Below are positions 8,488-53,548 of a stretch of 64,000 bases of DNA, piece after piece. Numbering within the stretch: the first letter of the stretch is position 1; every line of letters starts with the position of its first letter. Made by a program: the position numbers and the translations under genes. Below the pieces are notes generated by a model. The model had not been told where the DNA came from and searched no databases. It was given only the letters and a program-made list of their open reading frames with translations. This stretch comes from Viridothelium virens (Eukaryota; Ascomycota; Dothideomycetes; Trypetheliales; Trypetheliaceae), in the NCBI GenBank assembly GCA_010094025.1, contig ML991832.1, positions 115,636-179,635 on the forward strand, given 5' to 3'.

Positions 8488-9824
8488 ATGGGTGCTTGCG
8501 CCAGCAAAAATGACGAGGACGGAGAGATGAAGAAGAGGAGTCAGATGATTGACAAGAAACTCGAAGAGGACTCGAGACGGCTGAAACGAGAATGCAAGAT
8601 ATTGTTGCTGGGTAAGATGACATCACTTTTCATCTGAGTGGAAAGACCAGGCACTGACACTCATTTAACAGGCTCTGGGGAGAGTGGTAAGTCGACCATC
8701 GTCAAGCAAATGAAGATCATACATCAAAATGGATACACGGTGGACGAGCTGGCAATGTACCGCTTGACCGTCTACAAGAACGTCGTCGACTGCGCAAAGG
8801 CTCTTATTGCAGCCATGCGGCAGTTCGATATCCTACCCGAGGCACCGGGCACCCAAGAGTATTGCGATTACTTGATGGAGTACTCGGTCGATCCAGACCC
8901 GCACTCGGCATTAGATGTACGAGTCGGTCAGGCTGTAACCGCTCTGTGGAAAGACCCTTCGATACCAAAGATTCTAGATCACTCCAGCGAGTTCTATCTA
9001 ATGGACTCAGCACCATAGTATGACCCTCCAGACTTGCCTTCCATTAGCCCTTGCTAAATCGGCTCTAGTTTCTTTGACGAAGTCAATCGTATAGCCTCGC
9101 CCGACTACATTCCCATCGAGTCCGATGTCCTTCGAGCACGAACAAAGACCACCGGTATATACGAGACGCGCTTTGTCATGGGTCAATTGAGCATACAGTA
9201 CGACAAGCTATCCTGTTACGGGGACTTTTGCTGACAAAACATCCACAGCATGTTCGACGTTGGTGGGCAGCGTAGCGAGAGGAAGAAATGGATTCATTGC
9301 TTCGAGAACGTGACCTCAATCATATTTTGTGTTGCCTTGAGTGAATACGACCAAGTACTCTTAGAAGAGAGTAGTCAAGTATGTTTTGATTCTGTTATGG
9401 TAAGGTTACACATGCTAACGTTTATCCGAAGAATCGCATGATGGAGAGTCTCGTGCTCTTTGATTCGGTTGTCAACTCGCGATGGTTTATGCGGACCAGT
9501 ATCATTCTCTTCCTCAACAAGGTCGATCTGTTCAAAGCCAAGCTAGGCAAATCCCCACTGGGCAATTACTTCCCGGATTATTCAGGTGGAAATGATGTCA
9601 ACCGAGCTGCCAAATACCTACTCTGGAGATTCAATCAGGTCAACCGCGCACATCTCAACCTCTACCCTCAGTAAGCAGATGCGTGTTCAACATGATCTAG
9701 GAGGCTTGGCTAACTTGATGACAGTCTTACGCAAGCAACCGACACATCTAACATCCGACTCGTGTTCGCGGCTGTCAAGGAAACCATTCTCCAAAACGCT
9801 TTGAAAGACTCGGGCATACTATGA
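8488..9824 (+). CDS. ganB: heterotrimeric G-protein alpha subunit, group III (GanB/GNA-3 class)
   Basis: Six exons (8488-8611, 8672-9017, 9069-9197, 9249-9378, 9432-9670, 9725-9824) give 355 residues, the usual length. The N-terminus [11 protein letters not shown] carries Gly2 for myristoylation and Cys4 for palmitoylation. All nucleotide-binding motifs are intact: [13 protein letters not shown] (P-loop), [14 protein letters not shown] (switch I with the catalytic Arg), [14 protein letters not shown] (switch II with the catalytic Gln), FLNKVDLF (NKxD), and a TQATDTSN element near the C-terminus. The LLEESSQNRMMESL segment and the terminal DSGIL are typical of fungal group III, the class that in moulds works with adenylate cyclase/PKA in germination, growth and stress. 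Splice joins are all phase-consistent with GT-AG sites. Confidence 0.95.
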
Positions 9825-51554: not shown

Positions 51555-53548
51555 ATGATGGATCCAGCGTCTATTGTGGGAATAATCGGTTCGGTTGTTG
51601 GTATAGCAGACATTGTGACAAGAAGTATTCGAAGATTGAGTACTCTAAAGACCAAGTTTCGGGACGTGCCTTTCTTGGTCACGACCCTGACAGGCCAACT
51701 ATGTACCGTACAGGCAGCACTGGATCAACTTTCCGTCTGGGCCGCGCGGGATCTTACGACCGATACTCGATATAGAAAGCTTGCGACTCAAGTAGGAGAT
51801 GCGCTAGATTGCTTCGATCCTTTGATCAAGGCTCTTGAGAGTCGTCTAGATCGAATTGAAGGCATAGGCGAAGGTCAGGTAGATCTCAGCAGGAAAGTGT
51901 CGTTTCTGTGGACTGAAAAGGAATTGGTTGACTACTTGTCACTTCTTGACCGCCAGGTCAATGCCCTCACTCTTTTATTACAGGCCTTGCAATGGTAATG
52001 CCCCTTGAGATCGTGCAAAGGGCGCTGCTAAAGTTCAACAGTAAAACGTTCTTGGAGCAGGAAAAGATCATTACTGAAAGCGACGGTCAAACCATTCTTC
52101 GTCTTGCACGTGATCGCACCTCCTCCATTAGAGGGTTTGACGATACTTCTTGTTATGATAATGCAAGCCTTCTCTCTGAAGACACTAACGCGCTAAGCTC
52201 GCGATTTGACTTTGACTCAATACTCTTGTCATCGAATATATATCAAGCTGTTCAGCGATCTCATCTAAAGCAGCTGATTCGGTCGAAGGGAAGGCAAGAC
52301 GAAAACCGAGAAAATTCTACTGCTAGGTCACATCTCGATCTGTTTCCAGACTCTAAGCCTGGGGGTAATGCTTCGGAAGAGCGACGACTCCGGGGTCTAA
52401 GGTCATCGCTGGGTATCAGAGAGCCAAACACCCGCGATTTACAGCACAAGCGGCGAGATCCAGAAAATGCAGAATACCTGCAAAGGGAGAACGGACTCCG
52501 AAGGCCCCCTAGACCCCGAAGGCAGCGCAGAAATATTTTCCTTGCAGGCACTAACAACAGTGGCAAGAGCATTTTATTGAAAGGATTCAAGATCCTGGAG
52601 GATGGTGGTGTGCATAACTTTTCTCCAGAAGAGCGAATCAAATGGAAGGATATCATTTGCCGCAACATTATGGACGAACTTACAAAGACATTGATCACGA
52701 TGGATGAACATGGTATACGTCTAGAAAACGAAACCAACATGCCTCACGCAGAAAAGTTGTCGACGCAGTCTGAGGGTCGAAAAGAGCTGTCTCTCGATAT
52801 TGTCCAAGCGATAGAAGCACTATGGTCAGACCTGGGCGTACAGCGTTGTCATCATCGAAGAGGATTCGACTTCCATCCCGACCCCAACATTTCGTACTGG
52901 GTCAATGAGATAAGACGTTTGACCGCACAGGGATATCAGCCGAGTCTTGAAGATATCTTGAAGACAGGATTGAAAACAACCGGCGTGCATCGGACCAGTC
53001 TCAAATTTGATGGTGAACCGTATGAGTTCTTCGAAGTTGGAGGAACAAGAGCAGAAAGAAAGAAGTGGGACCATACAATGTACGACATACACTTGGTATT
53101 TTTCCTCGTGGACGCTACCGGTTACAATAAATGCTTGCCGGAAGACAGGAAATCGAGCCACATGCTTGAGAGTTGCAAGCTCTTGGAGTCACTCTTCAAC
53201 AGTGAGTATTGCGAGTCCTGGCGCTTCGTGATTGTCTTCACGCACCAGGATCAATTATACAAAGAGTTAGTGTATCACTCACCCAACGAGTATGGCCTTG
53301 CGAGCGATCGGGGCCCTCCGGGATTTCCCGGCTTTCCGGATGCTCCGTATGTTCCTTTCAGCTTTAAAGACGAGCTTGATCTAGAGTATGAGTACATGAA
53401 ATATCTTGAAGCACGGTTCATGGAATTGGCGCCGAAGAGTAAAAGGGCGCACATGAGGATGGTGTGGGCGAATCTTGTGAATCCGAAAACGGCCGACATC
53501 CAACACATCTTTGGAGTTATGAGAGAGCTGCTCAGCTATACGATTTGA
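51555..53548 (+). CDS. NLR-type N-terminal domain fused to a degenerate G-alpha domain
   Basis: Two exons (51555-51994 and 52042-53548, 47-base intron) give 648 residues. The N-terminus MMDPASIVGIIGSVVGIADI and following helices look like the domain found at the front of many fungal NLR/STAND and ankyrin proteins; the join reads LLLQALQ-CKTFLEQ, then a DRTSSIRGF segment and FDFDSILL typical of this group. After a basic linker the G-alpha domain starts with P-loop GTNNSGKS (316-323). Switch I keeps KTTG but has Gly456 where the catalytic Arg belongs; switch II reads EVGGTRAERKKW with Glu478 for Asp and Thr482 for the catalytic Gln; NKxD is THQD (547-550). The protein may bind nucleotide but should hydrolyse GTP poorly. 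There is no myristoylated N-terminus. Similar long G-alpha-like proteins exist in moulds, but their function is little known. Confidence 0.82.

Follow-up and report, generated by a model that had tools for sequence, protein, structure and literature searches.

A gene at positions 51555-53548 (plus strand) of a 64,000-nucleotide stretch of the genome of Viridothelium virens, a lichen-forming fungus of the Trypetheliaceae (GenBank assembly GCA_010094025.1, contig ML991832.1, positions 115,636 to 179,635), referred to here as the window, encodes a protein that, judged by its sequence, belongs to a family conserved among ascomycetes in which a HeLo-like N-terminal module is joined to a G-alpha core. 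In fungal NOD-like receptors (NLRs), HeLo-like domains serve as effectors at the N-terminus (PMC9815663); together with HeLo domains they are related to the executioner bundle of MLKL (PMC12881547). The fusion brings together two systems usually investigated separately, the HeLo/MLKL cell-death superfamily and heterotrimeric G proteins, and cautions that the name guanine nucleotide-binding protein subunit alpha is given in fungal genomes to some proteins that are not canonical G-alphas.

Excision of a 47-bp intron (GTAATG...CAACAG), which splices 51555-51994 to 52042-53548, yields a single protein of 648 amino acids followed by a stop codon. The deposited V. virens protein EV356DRAFT_472529 is of equal length and 100% identical over 100% of this 648-residue target, which bears out the first-pass annotation of the locus as one spliced protein; the residues singled out there, GTNNSGKS at 316-323, KTTG at 458-461, Gly456, Glu478, Thr482 and THQD at 547-550, are likewise all correct in the translation. 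A junction of the form ...LLLQAxQC is common to the target and its spliced homologues, and in paralogues on other contigs of the same genome (30.7 Mb in 175 contigs, which our C-numbers designate) the open frame ends at the site of the target's junction (C33, C30, C18) or about 14 residues earlier (C130). Given the conserved junction and the matching frame breaks, two separate transcripts for the halves of the target are unlikely. A wrong joining of two genes was also considered and is ruled out by the identical deposited model, the conserved junction and the occurrence of the fusion in other genera. The usual start in homologues with a complete N-terminus corresponds to the second methionine of the target (51558). 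Its features, all on the plus strand, are as follows.

51555-51994, plus strand: exon 1, residues 1-146 and two bases of codon 147, with the putative HeLo-like four-helix bundle (spliced translation, helix prediction, hhalign)
51995-52041, plus strand: intron of 47 bp, GTAATG...CAACAG (sequence, deposited protein, conserved junction)
52042-53548, plus strand: exon 2, third base of codon 147 through stop codon (spliced translation)
52052-52279, plus strand: second conserved stretch, residues 151-226, with the motif FDFD...S..YQ...RS (invariant alignment columns)
52280-52522, plus strand: variable linker, residues 227-307, likely disordered (pairwise identity 0.186, low predicted confidence)
52523-53536, plus strand: G-alpha core with Ras-like and helical domains, residues 308-645 (PF00503, Foldseek)
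52547-52570, plus strand: P-loop GTNNSGKS, kept, residues 316-323 (translation, family alignment)
52967-52969, plus strand: Gly456, replacing the switch I catalytic Arg (translation, HMMER alignments, family alignment)
53033-53035, plus strand: Glu478, replacing the Asp of DxxG (translation, family alignment)
53045-53047, plus strand: Thr482, replacing the switch II catalytic Gln (translation, HMMER alignments, family alignment)
53240-53251, plus strand: THQD, replacing NKxD, residues 547-550 (translation, family alignment)
53474-53476, plus strand: Leu625, at the Ala position of G5 (TCAT) (family alignment including canonical G-alphas)

Three protein searches, started from the whole protein (9 proteins, target included), from an alignment (10) and from the N-terminal 235 residues of a Bogoriella relative (37), combine to 43 family proteins, 41 of which match PF00503; the whole-protein and alignment searches scored only those candidates sharing most words, and the family counts are lower bounds. 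The proteins come from lichen and Xylaria-type fungi and from Clonostachys, the other genera including Bogoriella, Bathelium, Apiospora, Xylaria, Hypoxylon, Nemania and Monosporascus, and fused members in other genera are 30-61% identical to the target; P0002 and P0040 to P0043 begin within the N-module (P-numbers denote family rows). No relatives of the target locus were found in a collection of bacterial and archaeal contigs. The first-pass annotation called this the least explained architecture in the window; the fusion itself stands, and the architecture recurs in a family. One member from Xylaria longipes (P0033, 811 residues) carries an added PF12855 match, and P0042 has a cysteine-containing tail that by eye resembles that of P0033.

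The G-alpha match far exceeds what chance would give, with PF00503 covering residues 306-617 of the target at E 5.9e-59 and 200.3 bits against a curated cut-off of 48.8. A full-length model built from nine sequences has a mean predicted local distance difference test (pLDDT) score of 64, mostly 70-90 in the G-alpha blocks and below 50 over residues 173-307, and Foldseek superposes it on G-alpha-q (4qj3) with a template modelling (TM) score of 0.92, normalised by the target, and a root-mean-square deviation of 2.2, so that a complete G-alpha fold, helical domain included, is predicted. The Pfam scan of the target gave, besides G-alpha, only Arf and a weak AAA_21 match at the P-loop, with no NACHT or NB-ARC and, at E <= 1, no ANK, WD40 or TPR repeats; a NACHT match does occur in two of nine family members (best E 0.0051), far behind G-alpha. 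When the target is aligned by HMMER with the solved G-alpha-z and G-alpha-o, Gly456 corresponds to the switch I Arg (of G-alpha-o) and Thr482 to the switch II Gln, and these equivalences are also backed by alignment with two canonical G-alphas of the same genome. The target, whose core is 26% identical to that of the canonical copy on C62, is without the canonical catalytic Gln and Arg and without the guanine-reading motifs NKxD (here THQD) and TCAT. The earlier description of a G-alpha devoid of its hydrolysis residues holds, Gly456 and Thr482 being read in the translation and placed by the G-alpha-z and G-alpha-o alignments.

How far these replacements extend was tallied over the 43 family rows, with the stray letters of P0010 and P0022, which have no G-alpha part, excluded, P0011 truncated, and P0009, P0024 and P0030 kept despite poorly aligned switch regions. 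The GK of the P-loop is present in all 41 rows with a G-alpha part, and the catalytic Gln in none of 40, its place being taken by Glu (18), Thr (7), Ala (5), Val (3) or others (7). The Asn of NKxD is likewise missing from all 40 rows (Thr in 34, Ser in 5, Ala in 1), with the Asp of the same motif kept in 40/40, and the G5 Ala position is Leu in 34 and Ala in one of 37 family rows; the two canonical G-alphas in the alignment both have Ala there. A kept GK is combined with loss of both Gln and Asn in each of the 39 rows that have letters at the Arg, Gln and Asn positions. With GK kept and Gln, Asn and the G5 Ala lost, phosphate binding appears to have been held in the family, hydrolysis and base reading having been rewritten. 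The Asp of DxxG persists in 38 of 40 rows, and the switch II Trp in 37 of 39, from which a persisting partner-facing surface may be deduced. The catalytic Arg varies: 17 of 39 rows keep it, 13 have Gln, and a Gly like Gly456 of the target occurs in 1/39. What defines the family is the loss of Gln and of the base-reading residues. Of the losses first listed for the target, those of Gln and of the NKxD Asn are common to the family, and those of Arg and of the DxxG Asp are not, Glu as in Glu478 occurring in 1/40 rows. The Arg is present in the nearest relatives of the target, P0002, P0003 and the copy on C130 of its own genome, which makes its loss in the target a recent one.

The halves of the fusion have not diverged at the same pace. 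Over 33 of the 43 rows, with ten partial or odd ones left out, mean pairwise identity is 0.58 in the N-domain and 0.57 in the second conserved stretch, as against 0.186 in the linker and 0.36 in the G-alpha part. The lower conservation of the G-alpha, compared with the module it is joined to, suggests that the functional unit under constraint is the N-module.

Counted by place from genome profile matches, eight G-alpha genes of V. virens lie over the cut-off, three canonical (C3, C7 and C62:124300) and five divergent (the target and those on C130, C33, C18 and C46), C130 and C33 being further fusion copies. A tree was computed for 27 G-alpha cores, 20 of the 43 family rows and seven rows from this genome; one core alignment comprised 20 of 21 fragments, P0035 being left out. 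The fusion family forms one side of a branch with support 100/100, opposite the three canonical and two other rows of the genome, in agreement with the fusion having arisen once. A position inside the canonical G-alphas, foreseen in the first-pass annotation as the outcome that would speak against it, did not occur, as this branch sets the family apart. Within the family, the C33 copy and those of Bathelium group (82/86) among rows from Xylariales, and the target, P0002, P0003 and the C130 copy form a group (97/95) apart from that set; the branch between the two Trypetheliaceae sets is weak (56/78), and the arrangement counts against a simple history. The Trypetheliaceae copies may reflect duplications before the split, or transfer. 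C18 and C46 fall with the canonical C7 at 91/65, on long branches outside the fusion family. C18 has a related N-exon (E 1.3e-11) and the catalytic Gln, has GLHESDIS instead of a P-loop, and its last residues are DCGIV; either a second fusion or a long-branch effect may account for it. Given the 91/65 grouping with C7, and for C18 the missing P-loop and kept Gln, neither gene is claimed as a family member.

Residues 1-300 of the target match no Pfam model at E <= 1, PF17111 included, and among the 25 of 33 Pfam family names listed for eight other family members PF17111 does not appear. (The model is called Helo_like_N in PMC9815663 and PigL_N in the Pfam copy used.) Because a direct match was lacking, the N-terminus was compared profile to profile. 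The reference was a set of 16 exons of the same genome found by PF17111, 11 of them over its cut-off, drawn from 20 loci after omission of L046 and L049, already linked to the target N-domain by search, and of L040 and L048, for which no usable frame was obtained. Against this set, hhalign aligned residues 1-150 over 143 columns with a probability of 97.9 and a score of 66.7, compared with a maximum of 8.8 in 100 column shuffles and 25.1 for the reversed profile. A second path leads to the same class, a search of the genome with the N-domain of the target reaching proteins on C45 (E 5.4e-8) and C61 (E 4.2e-7), whose own N-domains match PF17111 (E 4.7e-4 and 2.9e-4, respectively). Helices are predicted at residues 4-34, 40-64, 71-102 and 121-145, with a short, low-confidence one at 111-118; for MLKL and HeLo-like domains, a short helix is described as lying between the third and fourth helices (PMC9815663). 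In the N-domain model, pLDDT means over ten residues are 69-87 in the long helices (55 in the first block) and 57-60 over 101-120, the part with the short helix. In 34 of the 36 family rows (of 43) compared, the hydrophobicity of the N-terminal 17-residue window exceeds that of every window starting after residue 25.

Structure searches with this model were taken as uninformative, not as counter-evidence: Foldseek returned no match at E <= 0.001, and VIA-align put bacterial, designed and Cbl bundles on top, HET-S not being among the best 50. The profile comparison and the linked searches support a HeLo-like (PF17111) class bundle at the N-terminus of the target, in keeping with the NLR-type domain initially proposed, this class being the one used in fungal NLRs and cell-death proteins (PMC9815663). 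With HeLo-like (HELL) proteins, which include HELLP and the HeLo-like NLRs, the target shares a predicted four-helix bundle of PF17111 type, placed at its extreme N-terminus and with a hydrophobic first helix, and it differs from them in carrying a G-alpha in place of NACHT or NB-ARC with repeats or of an amyloid motif. Within the second conserved stretch, A169, F202, F204, D205 and Y214 are invariant in the 43-row alignment, and a 51-residue query taken from it matches C130, C30, C33 and, weakly, C18 (E 0.04). Across the genome as a whole, PF17111 has 38 matching stretches at E <= 0.1, 12 of them over the curated cut-off; below the cut-off, the model also matches in two of 14 control genomes.

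In this genome, the N-domain relatives that come next after the G-alpha fusions and C30 are attached to other C-terminal partners. An N-exon related to that of the target (E 1.2e-10) on C39 (L027:2945-6027, minus strand) is followed by an ankyrin array, with Ank_2 in nine stretches, and related N-modules on C45 (L028:1150-3435) and C61 (L029:3532-5927, minus strand) each precede a copy of the cytosolic tail found at the C-terminus of a CCH1-type calcium channel, here detached from the rest of the channel. A full voltage-gated calcium channel gene lies on C35 (Ion_trans E 8.5e-47). The tail copies match the C35 tail at 31% identity and E 5e-27 (C45) and at 29% and E 2e-23 (C61) in pairwise comparisons, in which the database is one sequence; in a whole-genome search, a 61-residue piece of C45 matches C35 at E 3.8e-5. 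No Ion_trans match was obtained in the scanned pieces of C45 or the piece of C61. On C30 (L026:1628-2681), the N-module and FDFD stretch occur with no G-alpha match on the contig, and P0022, from Hypoxylon sp. NC1633, is a similar protein without a G-alpha.

The reading that we favour, tentatively and at somewhat short of an even chance, takes MLKL as its analogy: a HeLo-like effector (residues 1-226) would be held by a hydrolysis-dead G-alpha latch (residues 308-645), much as the dead kinase (pseudokinase) of MLKL controls a related four-helix bundle (PMC12881547). Both proteins would join a bundle of related superfamily to a catalytically dead signalling enzyme, with a pseudo-G-alpha, not a pseudokinase, in the target, and the analogy is mechanistic only. 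The reading draws on the HeLo-like class of the N-domain, on GK kept alongside lost Gln and Asn, on the retained switch II Trp, on the better conserved N-module, on the hydrophobic N-terminal window and on the recurrence of the fusion in many fungal records. The core would still fold and hold nucleotide phosphates, would be unable to switch itself off and so would not cycle as a G protein does. Output would come from the N-terminal bundle, in whose first helix the protein is at its most hydrophobic, and the pseudo-G-alpha would serve as a latch or as a platform for docking. A binding partner, be it Gbeta-gamma, an RGS protein or a G-alpha-directed factor of foreign or stress origin, would release the bundle or cluster it at a membrane, which the hydrophobic first helix might reach once released, and the output would be signalling of a cell-death or non-self type, as opposed to receptor-coupled second-messenger signalling.

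The main rival, which we consider rather doubtful, is an atypical G-alpha of the XLG type, in which the target would be a fungal counterpart of the plant extra-large G proteins (XLGs), working with Gbeta-gamma and independent of nucleotide or permanently GTP-bound; the N-module might, with similar reserve on our part, give location or receptor contact, the output being ordinary G-protein signalling and not bundle-driven death. In XLG1-3, too, a G-alpha whose nucleotide motifs are degenerate is preceded by an N-terminal extension (PMC8584482); the extension of the target is likewise long, and its degenerate G-alpha keeps the P-loop and the switch II Trp. XLGs are reported to bind very little nucleotide and XLG2 to function without GTP binding, and roles in defence are described (PMC8584482). 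The target is fungal, however, and has a HeLo-like N-module in place of the XLG N-terminus. That module is more conserved than the G-alpha, the reverse of what an accessory extension predicts, and the target is without the N-terminal MGxxxS lipid site and a canonical C-terminal tail. The N-terminal region of plant XLGs is cysteine-rich, unlike residues 1-226 of the target, which have scattered cysteines only. We think it very unlikely that the protein is instead a STAND-like device, switching genuinely by nucleotide but less strict about the base, in which exchange would drive oligomerisation, as with NACHT in NLRs. GK in 41/41 rows alongside G4 Asn and G5 Ala replaced almost everywhere would fit, as would the role of HeLo-like domains as N-terminal effectors of fungal NLRs (PMC9815663). 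Set against these are the guanine-reading G4 Asp, kept in 40/40 G-alpha rows, and the absence from the Pfam scan of the target of superstructure-forming repeats. G-alphas, moreover, are not known to form signalling rings.

That two unrelated signalling proteins have been captured by one type of N-module makes a further reading worth stating, that of an integrated decoy, in which degenerate copies of hubs serve as bait and an attack by a parasite or non-self on a G-alpha or calcium channel would trigger the bundle. We regard it as unlikely. It draws on the related N-domains of C45 and C61, attached to calcium-channel tail copies in the same genome, on the closer N-domain relative on ankyrin repeats (C39), and on a G-alpha part that lacks catalytic residues and has lower conservation than the N-module; yet the channel-tail fusions were surveyed in one genome, the E-values of the pairwise tail comparisons refer to a one-sequence database, and a decoy should keep the surface under attack. 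In a broader form, which strikes us as improbable though not fanciful, the HeLo-like and FDFD module would be an effector on the move, which time and again has acquired degenerate copies of the fungus's own signalling hubs as integrated decoys or dead latches; those captures, stated with the same hesitation, would be a G-alpha in at least three genes, a CCH1-type channel tail in two and an ankyrin array in one. If true, this would amount to a class of fungal immune receptors without NACHT or NB-ARC, with a dead G protein in the role of the dead kinase of MLKL. Should either the latch or the decoy reading hold, fungi would possess immune-type receptors regulated by a dead G-alpha, several per lichen fungus. 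Mere decay of the gene, or an artefact of its model, is highly improbable: P0010, P0011 and P0022 are partial or have no G-alpha part, P0009, P0024 and P0030 have strongly degenerate switch regions and C30 is an N-module without a G-alpha match, but the deposited model is identical, fused proteins recur across genera, GK is found in every G-alpha-bearing row and the splice junction is conserved.

A divergent expansion of G-alphas in a lichen fungus is already in print, as are HeLo-like domains in NLRs. The lichen fungus Cladonia grayi has eight G-alphas, five of them divergent 'MAG C' paralogues (PMC6652019), the same split of eight and five as in V. virens. No fusion of a HeLo-like domain with a G-alpha was found in the open-licence literature searched, including PF17111 together with PF00503. 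Canonical fungal G-alphas share with the target the Ras-like and helical fold, the P-loop and the switch II Trp, and the target, on its own 100/100 branch, differs in having no catalytic Gln, NKxD Asn, G5 Ala or N-terminal MGxxxS. A gene of the canonical kind lies on the same contig about 42 kb from the target, at 8665-9788 of the window (plus strand), with GSGESGKS, Arg, Gln and NKxD.
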